Shown one piece after another: positions 54,187 through 62,588 of a DNA stretch of 64,000 nucleotides (the first letter of the stretch is position 1; each line of letters begins with the position of its first letter). The notes beneath the pieces are model-generated. The model was given only the letters and a program-made list of their open reading frames with translations, searched no databases and was not told where the DNA came from. The translations under genes and the position numbers were made by a program. The stretch is from Bacteroidales bacterium (GTDB taxonomy: Bacteria; Bacteroidota; Bacteroidia; Bacteroidales; F082), in assembly GCA_024710405.1 (NCBI GenBank), contig JANJUV010000019.1:186001-250000 (forward strand). The letters run 5' to 3'.

Positions 54187-55086
54187 TTATATGAAAAACA
54201 AGACTACTCCACCCACTGAAATAATGGCGCCCACAATATCAATCCAGCTGATTTTCTGCTTAAAAAGCCATGCTGCCGGAGGGATGATCAGAATAGGCAC
54301 AATAGCCATCAGCGTTGCGGCAATGCCTGTTGAGGTGTGTTTTATGGCTAGCAGTGAGAATGATACACCCAGAAATGGCCCGAAAAAGGATCCAGTAGTG
54401 ATGCCAATCAGTGCCTTTCGGTTTTTAAACGACCTGATGACAACCGGCATATTTCTGCCCAGAGCAATGATGGCAACGAATCCGGCGAAGCCGGCAATGA
54501 TCCGTATTTGTGTGCTGGCAAAGGGATCATACGCCTGCATACCATACTTACTCAATACCAGGCCGCCGGCCTGCCCAAGCACGCCAAGAAATGCGAAAAA
54601 CAAACCTTTAAGCGGGTAATGTAATTTCAGTTTACCGTTTTCGCGGTTTCGGCCGGTGATAGTCATTCCGATTCCGGAAACCGTAAGGAACATGCCAAGC
54701 AGATGTATTGGGGTCATTTGTTCACCAAGTGTCATCCAGCCAAGGAATGCCGTCACTGGCGGCACAAATGTCATCACCAGCATGGCAATCCTAGAGCTGA
54801 TCATTGTGTAGGACTGAAAAAGGAAATAATCCCCAAACACAAAGCCCACCAAGCCCGACAGGCTGAGCCATAACCATGCATGAGATGTGGCATCAACAGG
54901 CAACAGCTGGCCACGGTAAAAGAATGAAAAAACAGAAAGAAATACGAGTGCAAATCCAAGTCTGATAATGTTCACCGACAGCGAGCCAACCATTTTACTC
55001 GCCGACTCAAACGACAATGCCGTGATGGTCCAGAAAACAGCCACAAGCAATGCAGCAATTTCTCCGGTATAGTGATCGGGCAACAT
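54187..55086 (-). CDS. DMT-family transporter (EamA)
   Basis: A 299-residue membrane protein with ten transmembrane helices in two EamA repeats (first repeat residues about 5-140, second about 155-299). The repeat pattern is clear from GLVGFVFGDYFLFQSYTMISSRIAML and GSFFGPFLGVSFSLLAIKHTSTGIAATLM. Such proteins export or import metabolites such as amino acids; the substrate is unknown. It follows the ALDH7 gene by 40 bp and could be the fourth member of that operon. Confidence 0.88.
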   Translation of the reverse strand: MLPDHYTGEIAALLVAVFWTITALSFESASKMVGSLSVNIIRLGFALVFLSVFSFFYRGQLLPVDATSHAWLWLSLSGLVGFVFGDYFLFQSYTMISSRIAMLVMTFVPPVTAFLGWMTLGEQMTPIHLLGMFLTVSGIGMTITGRNRENGKLKLHYPLKGLFFAFLGVLGQAGGLVLSKYGMQAYDPFASTQIRIIAGFAGFVAIIALGRNMPVVIRSFKNRKALIGITTGSFFGPFLGVSFSLLAIKHTSTGIAATLMAIVPILIIPPAAWLFKQKISWIDIVGAIISVGGVVLFFI

Positions 55087-55126: not shown

Positions 55127-56689
55127 TTACAACACAAACTTAATGCCCTGTGCAAAAGGAAGCTCTGTACTATAGTTAATGGTATTGGTCTGCCTGCGCA
55201 TATACACTTTCCATGCATCGCTGCCCGATTCGCGGCCACCGCCTGTATCTTTTTCCCCACCAAAAGCCCCGCCTATTTCTGCTCCGCTCGTTCCGATATT
55301 CACGTTGGCAATGCCGCAATCTGATCCTTCGTGCGACAGAAAACGCTCTGTTTCCATCATGTCGGTGCTGAAAATGGATGAAGAAAGACCCTGAGGCACA
55401 TTGTTGTGCATGGCAATGGCTTCGTCCATCGTTTTGTATTTCATCAGGTACAAAATCGGTGCAAAAGTCTCTTCCTGAACAATATGGTAGTGGTTTTCGG
55501 CTTCGGCCAATACTGGCACTACATAGCAACCAGATTCGTAACCCGGGCCTTCGAGCACCTGTCCGCCATAAAGAATACTTCCGCCTTCCTTCAGCAGTTG
55601 CTCCTTAGCATATCTAAACGCTTCCACAGCTCCTTTATCGATCAGCGGTCCAACCAGAACTTCAGGATCGAGTGGGCAGCCAATACGGATTTGTTTGTAG
55701 GCATTGACCAACTGATTCTTGAAACTGTCGTAAACCGACTCATGGATGATTAGCCTTCTGGTGGATGTGCACCGTTGACCGGCAGTGCCAACGGCACCGA
55801 AAACAGTTGCCCTGAGGGCCATGTCGAGGTTGGCCTTGTCCGAAATGATGATGGCATTGTTGCCACCCAGTTCGAGCAGGCTTCGGCCAAGCCTTTCGCC
55901 AACGATGCGGCCGACCCTGCGGCCCACAGCTGTGCTGCCTGTGCAACTGATCAGCGGAAGCCGTTTGTCGGCCAGAAAGTTATCGCCAATATGTTTCGAA
56001 CTGCCAATAATCAGGTTGGTTACACCCTCCGGCACGTTGTTGCGCTTGAGCACGTCCCCTATAATGTTGTGTATAGCGACAGCGCACAGCGGAACTTTCG
56101 AGCTGGGTTTCCAAATAACAGTGTTGCCCGTTACCAGTGCCAGCATGGCGTTCCATGCCCAAACTGCCACGGGGAAATTGAATGCTGTGATCACACCAAC
56201 CACACCGAGTGGATGATATTGGTCGTACATACGGTGCCTTGGTCGTTCGCTGTGCATAGTGAAGCCATACAGCTGACGTGAAATGCCTAAGGCAAAATCG
56301 GCAATATCAATCATTTCCTGAACTTCACCGAGTCCCTCCTGGTAGATTTTTCCCATTTCGTAGCTTACGAGTCTTCCAAGGTCTTCCTTGTGCCTTCTGA
56401 ATTCGTTTCCCATCTGCCGCACAATCTCGCCGCGTTGCGGAGCCGGAATCATGCGCCAGGTTTTGAAAGCCTCAGTGGCTTTTTCCATAATGTTCTCATA
56501 ATCGTTCCATGTTCCCTGTCGAACCGACGCAATCAGCCTGCCGTCGCAGGAAGCATAAGAGTCCAGTTTGTCACCGGTAGTTTCAATCCATACTGAACCT
56601 GTGCTGGCACCGTAGTTGATTATGTTAATGCCCAATCGTTCTAATGCCGGACGGATGTCGCAGGTGGGGCAAACGTGTTTCATGCTCAT
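55127..56689 (-). CDS. ALDH7-family NAD-dependent aldehyde dehydrogenase
   Basis: A 520-residue aldehyde dehydrogenase related to ALDH7 (alpha-aminoadipic semialdehyde dehydrogenase, antiquitin). The catalytic Cys is in GQRCTSTRRL (residue about 306), the general-base Glu in LLELGGNNAII (about 273), and the NAD motif in ITAFNFPVAVWAWN. The sequence IANVNIGTSGAEIGGAFGGEKDTGGGRESGSDAWKVYMRRQT near the C-terminus is a hallmark of the family. The N-terminus carries a CPTC pair. ALDH7 enzymes act in lysine catabolism, but the substrate here is not shown. The start codon lies 13 bp after the WtpA-like gene, so it is likely in the ModE-WtpA-ALDH operon. Confidence 0.9.
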   Translation of the reverse strand: MSMKHVCPTCDIRPALERLGINIINYGASTGSVWIETTGDKLDSYASCDGRLIASVRQGTWNDYENIMEKATEAFKTWRMIPAPQRGEIVRQMGNEFRRHKEDLGRLVSYEMGKIYQEGLGEVQEMIDIADFALGISRQLYGFTMHSERPRHRMYDQYHPLGVVGVITAFNFPVAVWAWNAMLALVTGNTVIWKPSSKVPLCAVAIHNIIGDVLKRNNVPEGVTNLIIGSSKHIGDNFLADKRLPLISCTGSTAVGRRVGRIVGERLGRSLLELGGNNAIIISDKANLDMALRATVFGAVGTAGQRCTSTRRLIIHESVYDSFKNQLVNAYKQIRIGCPLDPEVLVGPLIDKGAVEAFRYAKEQLLKEGGSILYGGQVLEGPGYESGCYVVPVLAEAENHYHIVQEETFAPILYLMKYKTMDEAIAMHNNVPQGLSSSIFSTDMMETERFLSHEGSDCGIANVNIGTSGAEIGGAFGGEKDTGGGRESGSDAWKVYMRRQTNTINYSTELPFAQGIKFVL

Positions 56690-56702
56690 GTTGTTTTTAG
56701 AA

Positions 56703-57665
56703 TTATTGGTTAGTATTTTGAATATATATCATTATTTCATCAGGAATGCCAGCGATGTCATTCACCTGTGCCGGATAAACCGGCTGTTGCCCGGAGGCCT
56801 TCAGTATTTTTCCCCCTTTATCAGGGTTTAAGACAAAATTGACGAAGTCCCATGCTCGTTTTTCATTGGCTGCATTCTTCAAAACTGTGATGCCGTATGT
56901 GATGGGTTCTCCTTTGATTTCCAGTTGACTGCCAGGCTCCGTTCCGCGAATCATTACTTTGCTTTGTGCATACCAGTCGGTTAGAGCGGGATTACTCAGG
57001 TTAACCGAATCGCTCAGCTTTATATGCCGCATCCCGTGTTGTATGGCTACCGATTCGTATATAAACATATAATCAATGGTACCGGTTTCAAGCAGGGCAA
57101 TAAGGTCTGTTTCCTTTGGCCGGAGATAGTGCCGCTTGCCTGACAAAATCAACCCGGTCAGGTTGTCCTTTCCCGTTCGTAATCCTTCCAGTTGCAGGCA
57201 TAATAGGGTGCGGTAACCGCAAGGGTCAGCATCCGGATCCGACGAACCAATGTGGACTTCCGTATCCATCAGTGTTTCTGCCCAATTATGGGAATTGATA
57301 TGACCGGAATGGAGCGAACGCTCATTGTAGGCGATCACAATGCTGTTGGTGGCAAACCTGATGTTGTGGTCTGCATGCTCGGGAATAAGTAACTGATCAA
57401 TAAGATGATGGTCTGCCGATGCGAGCAGATCGGCCTGACGTCCCAATTCGGTTATTTTTCGAATCGACGCCACTGAACCTGCTGCTTCGGTATAAATAGC
57501 AACGCCCGGATTTTCGGCAAGATAGGCAGCCGTGATTTCCGCGATGGGATAACTTAGGCTTCCGGCATGAAAAATTGTGATGGCTTCCTGATTTTGTTTG
57601 TGTGCACAGGAAAAAGCAAAAAATAGGATGATGCTTCCGGAAAATAACTTCAAAACATGTTTCAT
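56703..57665 (-). CDS. wtpA: Tungstate/molybdate-binding lipoprotein (WtpA-like)
   Basis: A 320-residue extracytoplasmic substrate-binding protein. The signal (LFSGSIILFFAFSC) is a lipobox with Cys20, so it is a lipoprotein. The mature part starts ITIFHAGSLSYPIAEI, the conserved oxyanion-binding opening of the ModA/WtpA family (GSL), continues with EAAGSVASIRKITELGRQADLLASAD and has TNSIVIAYNERS in the first lobe. The closest fit is WtpA, which prefers tungstate. No wtpB or wtpC gene lies nearby. It is translationally coupled to the ModE-like gene by a 4-bp overlap and lies 13 bp before the ALDH7 gene. Confidence 0.85.
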   Translation of the reverse strand: MKHVLKLFSGSIILFFAFSCAHKQNQEAITIFHAGSLSYPIAEITAAYLAENPGVAIYTEAAGSVASIRKITELGRQADLLASADHHLIDQLLIPEHADHNIRFATNSIVIAYNERSLHSGHINSHNWAETLMDTEVHIGSSDPDADPCGYRTLLCLQLEGLRTGKDNLTGLILSGKRHYLRPKETDLIALLETGTIDYMFIYESVAIQHGMRHIKLSDSVNLSNPALTDWYAQSKVMIRGTEPGSQLEIKGEPITYGITVLKNAANEKRAWDFVNFVLNPDKGGKILKASGQQPVYPAQVNDIAGIPDEIMIYIQNTNQ

Positions 57666-58042
57666 AGTTGTTTCAGGCTGGCTTTAAACTCTTCGAACGC
57701 CTGCTCCACGCTGTCGTCAAATTTCTGTTGCAGGGCACGGTAGGCTTCAAGCAGCTTTCTGGCGGCAGGAGTAAGTTCCGATTTTCCGCCATCCTTTCCG
57801 CCCCTTTGTTTTTCGATCAGCGGATAACCAAGTATTTCCTCAGCCTGCTCAATATCACCCCAGGCTTTGCGGTAACTAACAGACATTAATGTGGCAGCAG
57901 CACTGATGGAGCCTTTTTCGCCAATCATTTGAAGTAATTCGTAAGTTGAGTCACCGATCATGCCATTGCCTGTAAGGCCGGATAGCCAAATCTTGTAGTT
58001 CAGGAATACATCTTTTCGTTGTGGCTTCGGCGGTTTATCCAT
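57662..58042 (-). CDS. ModE-like winged-helix regulator, HTH domain only
   Basis: A 126-residue LysR/ModE-type DNA-binding protein. The winged helix is visible as GEKGSISAAATLMSVSYRKAWGDIEQAEEILGYPLIEKQRGGKDGGKSELTPAARKLLEAY, close to the N-terminal domain of ModE (SYRKAW, GGKDGG). The C-terminal molybdate-binding (Mop) domains of E. coli ModE are missing, so metal sensing needs another mechanism. I use the ATG at 58042; a longer frame starts at 58069, upstream of the TATTTTTG -7 element at 58059-58066. It is the first gene of the W-linked operon. Confidence 0.88.
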   Translation of the reverse strand: MDKPPKPQRKDVFLNYKIWLSGLTGNGMIGDSTYELLQMIGEKGSISAAATLMSVSYRKAWGDIEQAEEILGYPLIEKQRGGKDGGKSELTPAARKLLEAYRALQQKFDDSVEQAFEEFKASLKQL

Positions 58043-58058
58043 GAAGCATAATTTTTTG

Positions 58059-58066
58059 CAAAAATA
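58059..58066 (-). promoter_or_regulatory. -7 promoter element of the ModE-WtpA-ALDH operon
   Basis: TATTTTTG on the minus strand, 16 nt before the ATG at 58042; it excludes the start at 58069. Confidence 0.5.
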
Positions 58067-58172
58067 CACTTAAAGGCGATATGAATGTGGTTCCATAACG
58101 CACGAACTGTTAGCATTGAAGTTAGAGTCTGTTTATGAATCACTTTGGACACACCCTTGCTGGATTATTGCC

Positions 58173-58733
58173 TTAGCCGGCATGGTCGTATGCTGTTTTA
58201 ATCCAGTTCAGCACTTCTGCGTCAACTTCGGCTGCGTCTGACAGATTGATCTTGTGAGAACACATGGCATTAGGTTTCTCAGCTTCCAGTTTTCCTGCTG
58301 GAACTTGCCCTTTCAGGTTAATGCCAATTTCGAATCGCGTCTTTGAAGCCGGATTCAGCGTTGCGAACTGTTTCTTGCGCCTCAGACTTACGTATGTGTT
58401 TTTTGGTGCAATTTCAATGTCGTTTCCGAATTGCTGTATTTGTGCCATTAGAAGATCATAAAGGGCTTTGAAATGCTCTTTCCCCTGATATTGTTTGGTG
58501 ATCAGTTCCTCCGGGTTGTCCGCCGAACCGGCATCGGATCCCTTGGTCTTAAGCGCAATAAGATTGGCAAAGCCGTGGGTAAGTCCGTGATTTTCCTTGA
58601 GGAATTTTATGATTTCGCCATGTTTCTGAAAGTTTCCTTTTCTGACGATATCCATCCATTGATCCAGCGTTTTGCCGGTGTTTTTATGGAGGTTTTCGAT
58701 CATGGTAAGCGCTGCCTTGTCCATAGTTTTCAT
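58173..58733 (-). CDS. DUF4287 plus DUF5655 protein
   Basis: A 186-residue protein of two small domains. The N-terminal part (MIENLHKNTGKTLDQWMDIVRKG ... HGLTHGFANLIALK) is DUF4287, and the rest (YDLLMAQIQQFGNDIEIAPKNTYVSLRRKKQFA) is DUF5655, a family of basic proteins that may bind nucleic acids or nucleotides. Function unknown. It is 6 bp downstream of the DUF1801 gene. Confidence 0.8.
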   Translation of the reverse strand: MKTMDKAALTMIENLHKNTGKTLDQWMDIVRKGNFQKHGEIIKFLKENHGLTHGFANLIALKTKGSDAGSADNPEELITKQYQGKEHFKALYDLLMAQIQQFGNDIEIAPKNTYVSLRRKKQFATLNPASKTRFEIGINLKGQVPAGKLEAEKPNAMCSHKINLSDAAEVDAEVLNWIKTAYDHAG

Positions 58734-58739
58734 TGTTCG

Positions 58740-59162
58740 TTAGCTGTATTTCTTCTGAAGATGATCAATGGTTGACTGCATCAGTTTTTTTAGTGTTACC
58801 AGGTTGATGTCTGACAGCTTCTTCACATAGATACATGCTTTTCCCATGGTGAATTTTCCCAAATCCTTTAGGAGTTCGTCCTGACCTGCACAACCTGTGT
58901 ACACATAAAGCGAAATTGCTGCTTTCCTTGGCGAAAATCCGATCAGAGGCCAGTCGCCTTCCTGTTTGCTTCTGTCCGACTTATAATGGTACTTCCCGAA
59001 TCCGATGATGGAAGCACCCCACATTTTTGGCGGAAATCCTGTGAAATCCTGCATCAGCTTCACAAGCTCAAGACTGTCATCTATCTTTTGCTGGTTGTTG
59101 GCAAACGCATGGATGAAGGCAAGCACATCGGCATCAGTTTGTTTGGTTTTTATTTCAGCCAT
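58740..59162 (-). CDS. DUF1801 protein
   Basis: A 140-residue protein of the YdhG/DUF1801 type: KMWGASIIGFGKYHYKSDRS and DWPLIGFSPRKAAISLYVY are the characteristic segments. Some members are iron-binding frataxin-like proteins; function here is unknown. It and the DUF4287/5655 gene form a two-gene unit situated between the tungsten regulator operon and AOR. Confidence 0.8.
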   Translation of the reverse strand: MAEIKTKQTDADVLAFIHAFANNQQKIDDSLELVKLMQDFTGFPPKMWGASIIGFGKYHYKSDRSKQEGDWPLIGFSPRKAAISLYVYTGCAGQDELLKDLGKFTMGKACIYVKKLSDINLVTLKKLMQSTIDHLQKKYS

Positions 59163-59331
59163 GACTCGGTAAGTTTTAAAGTGATAATTTGTGAAGGTGT
59201 ATTTATCTGGTAATTCAGGGCGTAAATGTAAGAATTCTTTCAGGAAATGATGAAAGGTTTTCGGGAATTTGCAGAATGGTGGCGTGATACTAGATGTGAG
59301 AATTCGGGTAGGTGATCCGACTTCTGCATAT

Positions 59332-59370
59332 AAAGAAAAGGCAGCAAGTTATTGTACTTGCTGCCCTTTT
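59332..59370 (-). terminator. Rho-independent terminator of the AOR gene
   Basis: GCAGCAAGT (59341-59349) pairs with ACTTGCTGC (59356-59364); on the minus strand a T-rich tract follows. It lies just downstream of the AOR stop codon. Confidence 0.85.
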
Positions 59371-59398
59371 GTTGGCTTAAAACTGTGTTTGCTGATCT

Positions 59399-61558
59399 TT
59401 ATTCCTGATGTGGCAACACGAGTTCGATGAGTTCGGGAAGGTCCATGCCGAGGTTTTTCAGGTGCTCTACCTTTGGCACACCGTTCATGGTCCATCCGCG
59501 GCGTTTGTAAACGGCATCGAGGAGTTGTTCGTAGCGGTTCTCACGATAATCCCTCATCACTTTCATCTTCTCTTCTGTGCTTTTCCCTGCCGGATCAAAT
59601 CCTACAAGTTCCATCAATTGCTTGTCGTACCTGTCAGCGCGTGATTCGTATTCTTCAAAGGTTACAGGTCCTGCGGCACGATAGGGTTGGGCGTCGTACT
59701 TTCTGGTGCCATAACCCCTCCGGAGGTTGAAAATTCGTTGGAAATTATAAACCCGTTCCGACTGTCGGATCATTTCATATTTATCAAAATCTTTTCCTGT
59801 GACAGCTTTGTAAATAGTTACGTAGTTATCCACATGTTCCGGCACTTTTGCGGGTTCGTCCTGTTCATGGTTGTTTTCGGGTTCCACGTCGTTCCAGGGG
59901 AGCTTGCAAAGTCCTACCAGACCAAACCATGTGCGGAACATCGGGAAGTAATGCAGTGCTTCGGCTTTGGCTTCGAAGGTCGGGATCTGGTTGTTGACCA
60001 TGTCCATGAAAATAAGCCAGGCCTCGTCATGTTGCGGGCCTTTGTTGGTCATGGCGTAGCCACCCTGTTGGGCTAGAGATTCCTTGCTGACATATTGCGA
60101 ATACTCCAGCCCTTTGTTTTCCATAGCAATGTCGTTGATAAACTGTGGGTCGCCCCAGCCATTTTCAATGAACATCTCTTTCAATTTTCTGACTCCAAGT
60201 CCGGCAATCGGGCCAAAACCTTCGCCACGTCCGAGCTGGTGCAGCAGTTCCATCGCTGCATCAGCATTGCCGAAATTGAGTTTCAGGCCTCCGGTGCGCT
60301 CTTCATTCAGGATGCCGTTTTCATAGCATTCCATCACAAAACCGAGTATGGTTCCCCATGTGATAGTACAAATACCATAAGTATCGCAATAGAAGTTGGC
60401 TTCGATCGTGAAGTCGGGATTGAAAATTCCGGCGATAGAACCGAGTGAGGAGGTAGTTTCGTATTCAGGGCCATCGACGATCACTGAACTGTCTTTGTAA
60501 GGTCCGGTACGCAGCACATAATCATCAACTCCTTTGGCACAGGCCATATTGCAGCCTATCCAGCAGCCGTCGGGTATGCCTTGAGTAAATCTGGCCTTCC
60601 ATACTTCACCGTGTATTTTGAATGCTTCGGGGTGGTTGCCAAACTTGAAATTGTGCACGGGAAGCAGGTCGTAGTCGTTCATTACATTGGTGAGGTGGGC
60701 TGTGCCTTTGGTGCGCATTTCAGCCTGTTTGTCATCCAATTCACGCATTTCGCGGTTGAAACGCTGGCCGCGCTCCATGATAGCCTGCAGGTTGACCACG
60801 TTGTTGAGGTTTCCTTTTACGCCAGGAATTTTTGCCACGATGGCTTTAATCTTCTTGTCGCGCAATACAGTCCCTATGCCTCCGCGCCCGGCTTGCTTCA
60901 GCCTTACTTTTTTGCGTTTGGGATCGTAGAAGCTGAAATTGAGCATGCCGATCAGGGAGTGATCAGCGGCTGCACCTGCTGAAACAACTGCAATATTTTT
61001 CTTGTCTTTTTCATCGTTGGCATACATCTCGGTGAGTACCTCGGCAAGTATGTGGCTGTCGATGGGTTCGGCGGGCGCTTCAATTATCTCTACTGAGTGG
61101 TTGATGCCGTCGATAAAGATGATGACATCTTCTTTGGCCTTGCCCTGGATTTCGATTGCATCGAAACCCGAGAACTTCAGAAACGGACCAAAGAACCCAC
61201 CCACATTGCTGTCCATCACTGAATCAGTTTGAGGCGAAAGGCTCACGCATATTGACTTTCCTGTGCCTGAATATTGCGTGATGCCGCCAATGGGGCCTGA
61301 TGAGATGATGATTTCGTTTTCAGGGTCGTTCCATTTTGTCGTGGGTGTTGTGGCGTCCCACAAAAGCTTCAGCCCGTAACCTCTTCCGCCGATGAATTTC
61401 TCCTTCATCAAAGTTGATACTTCCTTCTCACGTATGGCATTTTCTGAAAGGTTCACATACAAGATCTTGTCGGTATATCCCCTGTCGAGGGCTTTCCAGA
61501 CATAATCCCAGCGCTTTAGTGTGTTGTGCTTCTGTTTGATTTCTGCAACTTCCATCAT
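59399..61558 (-). CDS. aor: Tungsten-containing aldehyde:ferredoxin oxidoreductase
   Basis: A 719-residue AOR-family enzyme, which oxidises aldehydes to acids and passes electrons to ferredoxin, using a bis-pterin tungsten cofactor and one [4Fe-4S] cluster. The N-terminal fold has the cofactor loop GGRGYGLKLLW; the cluster ligands are GCWIGCNMAC (C-x3-C-x3-C, near residues 333-342) with the fourth Cys in GLCKLPWND (near residue 549). P. furiosus AOR has C-x2-C-x3-C; the x3 form seems usual in a bacterial subgroup. The start is the ATG at 61558 or 61555; a -7 element lies at 61582-61589. It is divergent from the thiF/thiS pair and about 1.4 kb from the ModE-like gene. Confidence 0.93.
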   Translation of the reverse strand: MMEVAEIKQKHNTLKRWDYVWKALDRGYTDKILYVNLSENAIREKEVSTLMKEKFIGGRGYGLKLLWDATTPTTKWNDPENEIIISSGPIGGITQYSGTGKSICVSLSPQTDSVMDSNVGGFFGPFLKFSGFDAIEIQGKAKEDVIIFIDGINHSVEIIEAPAEPIDSHILAEVLTEMYANDEKDKKNIAVVSAGAAADHSLIGMLNFSFYDPKRKKVRLKQAGRGGIGTVLRDKKIKAIVAKIPGVKGNLNNVVNLQAIMERGQRFNREMRELDDKQAEMRTKGTAHLTNVMNDYDLLPVHNFKFGNHPEAFKIHGEVWKARFTQGIPDGCWIGCNMACAKGVDDYVLRTGPYKDSSVIVDGPEYETTSSLGSIAGIFNPDFTIEANFYCDTYGICTITWGTILGFVMECYENGILNEERTGGLKLNFGNADAAMELLHQLGRGEGFGPIAGLGVRKLKEMFIENGWGDPQFINDIAMENKGLEYSQYVSKESLAQQGGYAMTNKGPQHDEAWLIFMDMVNNQIPTFEAKAEALHYFPMFRTWFGLVGLCKLPWNDVEPENNHEQDEPAKVPEHVDNYVTIYKAVTGKDFDKYEMIRQSERVYNFQRIFNLRRGYGTRKYDAQPYRAAGPVTFEEYESRADRYDKQLMELVGFDPAGKSTEEKMKVMRDYRENRYEQLLDAVYKRRGWTMNGVPKVEHLKNLGMDLPELIELVLPHQE

Positions 61559-61581
61559 GGGTTTTGTTGTTAATTAATTCA

Positions 61582-61589
61582 CAAAAATA
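61582..61589 (-). promoter_or_regulatory. -7 promoter element of aor
   Basis: TATTTTTG on the minus strand, 23 nt before the ATG at 61558. Confidence 0.5.
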
Positions 61590-61632
61590 CAGTTTTTCAC
61601 GAAACTTTGGTTTAAGTTGTTCAATTTTAGCA

Positions 61633-61653
61633 ATATGCATTGAATTTGCATAT
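61633..61653. promoter_or_regulatory. 7-bp inverted repeat between aor and thiF
   Basis: ATATGCA (61633-61639) and TGCATAT (61647-61653) flank a 7-bp spacer, in the 229-bp divergent region. ModE-type operators are also AT-rich inverted repeats, so it is a candidate binding site; no experiment supports this. Confidence 0.35.
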
Positions 61654-61769
61654 CGGATAACATTATACTAATCATTTGCTTTGTATAGGTTTACAGGTAT
61701 ATTTAGAATGGATATAAATTTTGATACAATCAGATTCAATTAGCGAACCCCTACCTCCGATCCTTTTGC

Positions 61770-61777
61770 TATTTTTG
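61770..61777 (+). promoter_or_regulatory. -7 promoter element of the thiF-thiS pair
   Basis: TATTTTTG ends 10 nt before the thiF ATG at 61788. Confidence 0.5.
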
Positions 61778-61787
61778 TGCAACGGCT

Positions 61788-62375
61788 ATGAACTGGGTAA
61801 CGATAAAAGAAAAAATCAGCAATAAAGTAGTTGGCATTGCCGGTTGCGGCGGCCTTGGCAGCAATGCAGCCATGTCGCTGGCCCGTGTGGGCATCAGAAA
61901 TTTTGTGCTGGCCGATTTTGACGTGGTTGAGGAAAGCAACCTGAACAGACAATACTATTTTCGCAGTCAGATCGGAAAAAAGAAGGTTGATGCTTTGGCC
62001 GAAAACATTAAGTTGTTGGACGAGACCATCAGTATTGTACGACACGATCTCCGGCTTGATCCGGTCAATATGCCTGAAATTTTCGGTAGCTGCCACCTAA
62101 TCATTGAAGCTTTTGACAGGGCTGAGGCCAAACAGATGCTGGTGGAGACCGTTCTGGCACACTGGCCCGATAAACCGCTGATTTTGGGCGTAGGCATGGC
62201 AGGTACAGGCAACTTTAACCTGATCCGTCAGGAGCAATGGGATAAAAATATCTATGTCTGTGGTGATTCGGTCACTGAAATATCTGATGAAAACCCGCCG
62301 CTGGCTCCAAGGGTGTGCATCGTTGCCAATATGCAGGCAAATCTTACGCTGGAGCTTTTGCTGCAAGGAAAATAA
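61788..62375 (+). CDS. thiF: ThiF/MoeB-like sulfur-carrier adenylyltransferase (E1-like)
   Basis: A 195-residue Rossmann-fold E1-like enzyme. The ATP-binding motif is GCGGLGSN (residues 19-26), with DVVEESNLNRQYYFRSQIGKKKVDAL behind it. It is the short ThiF form, without zinc-binding Cys pairs or a rhodanese domain. It should adenylate the C-terminal Gly-Gly of the small carrier encoded 9 bp downstream. Standing divergent from aor, it may prepare sulfur for the tungstopterin cofactor rather than for thiamine; no thiG, thiH or moa gene is in the window to decide. Confidence 0.88.
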   Translation: MNWVTIKEKISNKVVGIAGCGGLGSNAAMSLARVGIRNFVLADFDVVEESNLNRQYYFRSQIGKKKVDALAENIKLLDETISIVRHDLRLDPVNMPEIFGSCHLIIEAFDRAEAKQMLVETVLAHWPDKPLILGVGMAGTGNFNLIRQEQWDKNIYVCGDSVTEISDENPPLAPRVCIVANMQANLTLELLLQGK

Positions 62376-62384
62376 AGTTTAATC

Positions 62385-62588
62385 ATGAGAATTACCATAA
62401 ACAATACATCGGAACAAATTGAAAGAGATCAGTTGACGGTAAATGAGTTGATCAGATATAAGAATTACACCTTCAAACTACTGGTAACCAAGGTTAATGG
62501 ACAACTGGTTAAAACCCATGAGCGCGATGATGTACTTGTTCGCGAGGGCGACGATGTTCAGATTCTGCACCTGATATCCGGGGGTTAG
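62385..62588 (+). CDS. thiS: ThiS/MoaD-like sulfur carrier
   Basis: A 67-residue ubiquitin-fold protein ending in GG (DDVQILHLISGG), the site for activation as acyl-adenylate and thiocarboxylate. The central LLVTKVNGQLVKTHERDDVLVREGDDVQIL matches ThiS/MoaD carriers. It is 9 bp after thiF and surely its partner. Its last 4 bp overlap the convergent TylF-like gene. Whether it serves thiamine or pterin synthesis is open. Confidence 0.88.
   Translation: MRITINNTSEQIERDQLTVNELIRYKNYTFKLLVTKVNGQLVKTHERDDVLVREGDDVQILHLISGG

Follow-up and report, generated by a model that had tools for sequence, protein, structure and literature searches.

A 64-kb window of a Bacteroidales genome (G000:C13:186001-250000 of 3.39 Mb; the window is the whole stretch of DNA analysed), whose open reading frames (ORFs) were listed and then matched to families, encodes a ModE-like regulator (modE), a WtpA-like lipoprotein (wtpA) and an ALDH7-type dehydrogenase close to a tungsten aldehyde oxidoreductase (AOR) and a thiF/thiS pair. 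The same type of palindromic box lies at the tungsten AOR and at metal-free aldehyde enzymes, here and in many relatives, and a ModE-type regulon with a tungsten-sparing arm is likely. A sequence-only reading of this DNA had named these genes and grouped modE, wtpA and ALDH7 in a tight operon; the genes were recovered where it had placed them, and the ORF list, the family matches, a 4-bp overlap of modE and wtpA and a 13-bp gap between wtpA and ALDH7 bear out the operon, the overlap and short gap making a single modE-wtpA-ALDH7 transcript likely. The features of the region, by window position and strand, are as follows.

54187..55086, minus: EamA-type transporter gene (family match), starting 40 bp after ALDH7; on position alone, a possible last member of the operon
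55127..56689, minus: ALDH7-type NAD-dependent dehydrogenase, predicted aminoadipate-semialdehyde/piperideine-6-carboxylate dehydrogenase
56703..57665, minus: wtpA, tungstate/molybdate-binding lipoprotein (TIGR03730 above cut-off; phmmer matches to 2onk and others)
57662..58042, minus: modE-like regulator, DNA-binding domain only (the GTG-started ORF reaches 58069)
58059..58066, minus: predicted -7 element TATTTTTG of modE-wtpA-ALDH7, 10 bp below the box (TAnnTTTG consensus)
58077..58100, minus: ModE-type box of the modE-wtpA-ALDH7 promoter, CGTTATGGAACCACATTCATATCG, spacer 6, 19.6 bits
59336..59369, unstranded: bidirectional terminator-like hairpin after AOR (hairpin scan, both strands)
59399..61558, minus: AOR, single-subunit tungsten aldehyde oxidoreductase family (AFOR_N and AFOR_C)
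61582..61589, minus: predicted -7 element TATTTTTG of AOR, 41 bp below the box
61631..61655, minus: ModE-type box between AOR and thiF, CGATATGCAAATTCAATGCATATTG, spacer 7, 24.9 bits
61788..62375, plus: thiF, adenylyltransferase, likely for the tungsten cofactor (family match; thiF adjoins such enzymes in excerpts of PMC13328260)
62385..62588, plus: thiS-like sulfur carrier (compare WorX; family match)

The proximity of AOR and thiF/thiS to the operon, also proposed earlier, stands (1.3 kb, with AOR on the same strand), but AOR is a separate unit: two genes (DUF4287/DUF5655 and DUF1801) and the region's strongest terminator-like hairpin, which is bidirectional, intervene. The thiF/thiS pair is divergent from AOR. 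Hairpin numbers overall did not clearly exceed those of shuffled sequence (14 vs 10.7 ± 3.0). Riboswitch control was rejected after an Rfam scan of the window returned one tRNA only, and in a plasmid search with the region the best 5 of 103 matches listed aligned only around ALDH7.

The window ModE scored 82.5 bits against TIGR00637 (E 1.7e-23), under the cut-off of 98.5, and matches the solved ModE structures 2ijl and 1b9m with an N-terminal ModE DNA-binding domain; judged by its domains, it is a predicted single-domain ModE-type protein and not a full-length ModE. Its start is more likely ATG 58042 (126 aa) than GTG 58069, since the latter falls upstream of the predicted -7 element. WtpA scored 275 bits against TIGR03730 (cut-off 243) and 319 against PRK04168, where the cut-off of 355 was not reached, and its N-terminus is lipoprotein-like by eye. 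AOR combines AFOR_N and AFOR_C in a single large subunit, the Class I domain arrangement, with no WorS-like neighbour among the window ORFs; its closest named relatives, up to 90% identical, come from assemblies of Bacteroidales or Bacteroidetes. ThiF (244 bits, cut-off 159) and ThiS (45.7, cut-off 37.5) both exceed their family thresholds.

ALDH7 scored 794 bits against NCBIfam NF050084 (L-piperidine-6-carboxylate dehydrogenase, cut-off 730), aligns along human ALDH7A1 entries and keeps the QRC site and the GGAFGGEK-GGGRESGSD stretch; as a member of this family it presumably oxidises aminoadipate semialdehyde with NAD. A second NAD enzyme of the order, P5CDH, passes the TIGR01236 cut-off, and by family both enzymes are predicted to oxidise amino-acid semialdehydes. 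ALDH7 and P5CDH matches also lie within one open frame of ~1100 aa at G049:C130:8509-11802, as if fused.

A ModE-type box upstream of AOR and NAD dehydrogenases

The box was first noticed by eye in AOR upstreams, and AOR counts from our sample of the order (149 genomes) are training counts; modE, wtpA, P5CDH and other gene classes, together with named AOR loci, were held out. A palindromic model (consensus CGATATGCA-N6-TGCATATCG) was trained on 54 AOR upstreams with the window omitted (34 sites used), and boxes were called with spacers of 5 to 8 at a threshold of 13.3 bits, the 99.9% level of shuffled upstreams. Boxes were found in 32/55 AOR upstreams (training plus window) and, among the held-out classes, upstream of modE (9/18), wtpA (13/50) and P5CDH (17/59), together 39/127. 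Column-permuted models yielded a mean of 0.3 and a maximum of 6 of 128 held-out upstreams, vs 39 for the real model. Held-out named AOR loci carried the box in 50 of 71 cases, after removal of 8 training duplicates and 1 locus with too little upstream sequence. ThiF upstreams had it in 9/31, 8 of these being the shared AOR/ThiF site, and none of 37 ALDH7 genes had it directly upstream. Over all loci the box marked AOR (79/128), ModE (22/38), P5CDH (21/70), WtpA (16/69), the unassigned families c6 (8/18) and c4 (5/22), and WtpB (2/50), with none at MoaA (0/23) or MoeA (0/25); it preceded 24 of 1345 unlabelled genes, and 12 of these 24 sites are an AOR, wtpA or P5CDH site read on the opposite strand.

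Within the 64-kb window the highest-scoring sites are those at AOR/thiF (24.9 bits) and modE-wtpA-ALDH7 (19.6), the next reaching 11.3. A genome-wide search for CGNTATGN10CATANCG gave a single exact match, the modE-wtpA-ALDH7 box; one-mismatch hits (3 sites per strand vs 6 for the reversed control) were set aside and only the exact match was used. The box is present and specific, with ModE as its predicted binding protein.

Presence of the box also differed with that of AOR. For ALDH7, the box was sought above the whole co-directional run, in 36 of 39 ALDH7 genomes (ORFs of at least 400 aa), and was found in 6/13 AOR-positive genomes (the window's own, G089, G097, G099, G103 and G134) vs 0/23 AOR-negative ones. 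Directly upstream of P5CDH it occurred in 16/41 AOR-positive vs 1/18 AOR-negative cases, the 18 sequences coming from 49 such genomes. In the count above co-directional runs, one P5CDH operon (G022) is weak, as it rests on a seven-gene run.

Several further observations concern the sites themselves. The box is shared with genes divergent from AOR at L052, L084, L095, L225, L226, L230 and other loci; L052_01 matches DUF364 ('putative heavy-metal chelation', E 1.3e-26), and the other AOR-divergent proteins are alike by eye. The P5CDH upstreams of L191, L193, L195, L202 and L135 carry a related but different palindrome with half-sites CGAATTGCA or CGAGTTGCA, to which a different ModE paralogue may bind. 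A 25.4-bit box precedes gene L241_02, whose product is threonine aldolase-like by eye, an aldehyde-making enzyme.

Box position relative to promoters

Bacteroidetes promoters have TAnnTTTG at -7 and a -33 element ~20 bp above it. The search for -7 elements used TAnnTTTG, as a sigma-70 scan had come out at shuffle level (12 sites vs 14.0 in shuffles). In the window, -7 elements lie 10 bp below the modE-wtpA-ALDH7 box, which covers the expected -33 position, and 41 bp below the AOR box. Across the boxes of the training loci plus the window (n=32) TAnnTTTG lay 30 to 61 bp below the AOR box in 29 cases (median 41), overlapped it in 1 and was not seen in 2. The held-out AOR loci had it below the box in 47/50, 37 of them at 39-43 bp, with 5 at 32-33 bp, 3 at 20 and one each at 16 and 47; these steps of ~10 bp suit a factor bound on one helix face. 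Uptake and NAD-enzyme promoters had a different arrangement: the -7 element overlapped the box in 8 of 13 wtpA cases (5 bp below in 1, none seen in 4), in 4 of 9 modE cases (below in 1, the window, at 10 bp; none seen in 4) and in 3 of 17 P5CDH cases (6 to 22 bp below in 5, none seen in 9). Pooled, it was recognisable in 22/39, overlapping in 15 and 5-22 bp below in 7, usually within 12 bp. Median distances from box end to ATG were -85 for AOR, -31 for P5CDH, -24 for wtpA and -14 for modE.

Repressors usually bind in the core promoter, and activators well above it. From the core-promoter box at the uptake and NAD-enzyme genes and the distal box at AOR, we infer repression of the former and activation of the latter, the metal enzyme and the metal-free enzymes sharing a control site in opposite geometry. 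The sequence-only reading had suggested that low tungstate relieves the regulator and raises both tungstate capture and ALDH7 as a stand-in for AOR; of this switch it is the regulatory half that is supported, through boxes at both promoters, their opposite geometry and the recurrence of both in relatives.

Metal genes elsewhere in the genome

WtpB-like permease and WtpC-like ATPase genes are both encoded in the genome, where three PF00528 permeases in total were found. They are not beside wtpA, lying instead on contig C5, adjoining MoeA and MoaA (L149:4857-6723) without a strong box, and the best NCBIfam match of WtpB, tungstate_WtpB, reached 281 bits, under its cut-off of 340. The same contig holds a second AOR-family gene (G000:C5:138287-139372), 26% identical to the window AOR, whose promoter lacks a strong box. 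On contig C7 a second single-domain ModE lies beside a TonB-type receptor and families c6 and c4, neither with a Pfam match. At this locus (L150:1202-6855) two strong boxes, with the second ModE, lie between these genes; the boxes (23.6 and 18.9 bits, spacer 5) are ahead of the TonB/c6 genes and of c4, and the locus is a possible outer-membrane arm of tungstate uptake. Structure models of c4 and c6 (mean pLDDT 37 and 54) were set aside.

Distribution and gene neighbourhoods across the order

WtpA was found in 54/149 genomes at E 0.001 (with E 1e-60 or better in 50), ModE in 59 (57 at E 1e-5 or better), window-type AOR in 56, ALDH7 in 39 and P5CDH in 91. ModE and WtpA track AOR across the order more than expected by chance, WtpA being present in 44/56 AOR-positive vs 6/93 AOR-negative genomes and ModE in 43/56 vs 14/93; the counts for P5CDH were 42/56 vs 49/93. 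The Fisher, Mann-Whitney and binomial values exaggerate significance, since related genomes do not count as independent samples.

ModE, WtpA, AOR, ALDH7 and P5CDH are repeatedly neighbours. Among 51 clustered loci (49 with a WtpA ORF), 35 included the WtpB cluster, 33 WtpC, 16 ModE and 9 AOR, and within 6 kb of 80 named AOR loci we found ThiF (51), ThiS (43), WtpA (20), ModE (19), P5CDH (13) and ALDH7 (2). In 10 genomes, from 8 families, P5CDH lay no more than ~5 kb from AOR, and two loci, L275 and L292, hold ThiS-ThiF, AOR, P5CDH and ModE-WtpA-ALDH7 all in one stretch. Conservation of the exact ModE-WtpA-ALDH7 order in relatives was a check proposed with the earlier reading; the order was seen in four places only, the window, L053, L275 (where WtpA is split into two ORFs) and L292. 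More broadly, ALDH7 was near ModE, WtpA or Moa/Moe genes in 8/16 AOR- or WtpA-bearing genomes (G000, G039, G051, G073, G097, G103, G119 and G124) vs 0/23 others; not counted here are ThiF genes next to ALDH7 in the AOR-negative genomes G013, G040 and G130 and a weak MoaA-like match in G131. That ALDH7 stands beside wtpA as a chance neighbour with no functional meaning agrees with the four occurrences of the exact order, but it is highly improbable in view of this 8/16 vs 0/23 contrast and of the boxes at 6 of the 13 ALDH7 operons in AOR-positive genomes.

In L137 (G049) the ORF caller did not recover ALDH7. At L139, L174 and L176, in genomes without window-type AOR, a ThiF gene adjoins a P5CDH-ALDH7 pair.

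A proposed two-way switch and its alternatives

Drawing on the genes, the operon layout, the boxes and their specificity, the two geometries and the recurring adjacency, all read from the DNA itself, we regard a two-way ModE-box switch between AOR and the NAD enzymes as, on balance, the probable explanation. A single-domain ModE-type regulator would recognise the same type of palindrome at promoters of two sorts. When the metal oxyanion, most likely tungstate, is abundant, ModE would sit over the core promoter of modE-wtpA-ALDH7 and repress it, as it would wtpA and P5CDH or P5CDH-ALDH7 in relatives, and would activate AOR from ~41 bp above the -7 element. With tungstate scarce, AOR would fall, and tungstate capture and the NAD-dependent, metal-free semialdehyde dehydrogenases would rise. 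Binding of the box by ModE, tungstate as the signal and the sign of each effect are predictions of this scheme, and its weakest step is the presumed takeover of AOR's work by the NAD enzymes; as ALDH7 and P5CDH are by family semialdehyde enzymes, AOR should act on such substrates if they are its stand-ins.

A number of observations weigh against such a switch. By its family, ALDH7 would belong to lysine metabolism and not to the oxidation of general aldehydes, and its co-occurrence with AOR is at chance level (14/56 AOR-positive vs 25/93 AOR-negative genomes), for which reason co-occurrence was dropped as support. The box is missing from 23/55 AOR upstreams, from 7/13 ALDH7 operons and 25/41 P5CDH upstreams in AOR-positive genomes and, in the window's own genome, a comparably strong one was found at none of P5CDH (the absence that counts here), wtpBC and the second AOR. 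The -7 element went unrecognised in 17/39 repressor-type cases. Boxes precede wtpA in 3/6 AOR-negative genomes (10/44 AOR-positive) and AOR in 4/12 genomes without a detected ModE (28/43 ModE-positive). To these are added the lack of a TOBE/MOP (molybdate-binding) domain on the window ModE in family scans, the failure to find a stand-alone TOBE protein in the genome, and two PF00384 (molybdoenzyme-type) proteins, which make molybdate a possible signal.

Part of this evidence suits ordinary ModE-type metal homeostasis, with repression of uptake and activation of the metal enzyme, in which ALDH7 and P5CDH would belong to the regulon in some other capacity (amino-acid breakdown adjusted to AOR, for instance) and would not replace AOR. 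The scores of both enzymes above equivalog cut-offs for amino-acid semialdehyde dehydrogenases, the chance-level co-occurrence of ALDH7 and AOR and the fact that boxes are commonest at AOR and modE are in keeping with it; the opposite box geometry at AOR and the NAD enzymes, however, predicts opposite and not joint regulation, and we consider this account rather unlikely. The domain evidence bears on the signal. Within the genome, a TOBE domain was found on the WtpC-like protein alone, and the window ModE carries no known oxyanion-binding domain, so tungstate is put forward as the signal conditionally. ModE might thus bind the box in response to molybdate or something else, tungsten sparing not being the purpose, as the missing TOBE/MOP domain, the encoded PF00384 enzyme and the annotation of WtpA-type proteins as molybdate/tungstate binders would allow; ModE and WtpA nevertheless follow AOR across the order, and no strong box was found near the two PF00384 genes, so that we judge a signal of this kind improbable.

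Comparison with known systems

The papers cited here are represented by excerpts. The regulator shares the ModE-family DNA-binding domain with the E. coli-type ModE regulon (PMC545781) and differs in having no molybdate-binding domains and in targets that include a tungsten AOR and NAD dehydrogenases. The box and the E. coli-type ModE consensus ATCGNTATATA-N6-TATATANCGAT (PMC545781) have the common frame CGnTATnnA-N6-TnnATAnCG, with GC replacing AT in each box half-site; the E. coli-type half-site CGNTATATA was rejected, matching only 8/128 and 1/56 upstreams. Alike in architecture is the Desulfovibrio single-domain ModE, a DNA-binding domain alone whose metal sensing is likewise unexplained in the excerpts, but its site, CGGTCACG-N14-CGTGACCG, is unrelated to the box (PMC545781).

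In Pelobacter carbinolicus a tungsten AOR is expressed with tungstate, and under tungsten limitation another aldehyde enzyme, a molybdenum isoenzyme, takes its place (PMC4275255); the substitute thus differs from that proposed here, and the excerpts name no regulator or site. In Aromatoleum a tungsten AOR and an NAD-type phenylacetaldehyde dehydrogenase serve the same step, and AOR activity was five-fold higher after deletion of the dehydrogenase gene (PMC6365974); the enzymes are of other types (a three-subunit AOR), and no ModE switch is described in those excerpts. Cofactor-free isozymes repressed by the cofactor, such as B12-, nickel- and iron-independent alternatives, follow the same logic and are not described for tungsten or aldehyde oxidation in the excerpts of that section (PMC545781, section 31). 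Class I tungsten oxidoreductases resemble the window AOR in their single large subunit and adjacent thiF and ThiS-like gene (WorX); no relevant passage on ModE, WtpA or Bacteroid* was found in the main text (PMC13328260). Among the papers listed from the open-licence literature we found no report of ModE controlling NAD aldehyde dehydrogenases vs AOR, nor of the box in Bacteroidales.

The switch first suggested for one locus is now backed by control sites conserved across a bacterial order, with P5CDH as a second NAD enzyme in the same role, and metal sensing by single-domain ModE becomes a testable question. In the tungsten oxidoreductase family, no more than five of 92 clades include an enzyme whose physiological role is defined (PMC13328260, abstract), and a control site common to a tungsten enzyme and better-known NAD enzymes offers a direct guess at the role of AOR. 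With such a switch, tungsten would join the metals for which a metal-free isozyme compensates when supply runs short. We tentatively suggest, as a possibility short of probable, an undescribed Bacteroidales-wide tungsten-sparing regulon in which a single-domain ModE, acting through one palindrome, turns the tungsten AOR on from a distal box and WtpA (perhaps with the TonB-type system), P5CDH and ALDH7 off from core-promoter boxes; if so, the substrates of AOR would be glutamate and aminoadipate semialdehyde, with ferredoxin in place of NAD.

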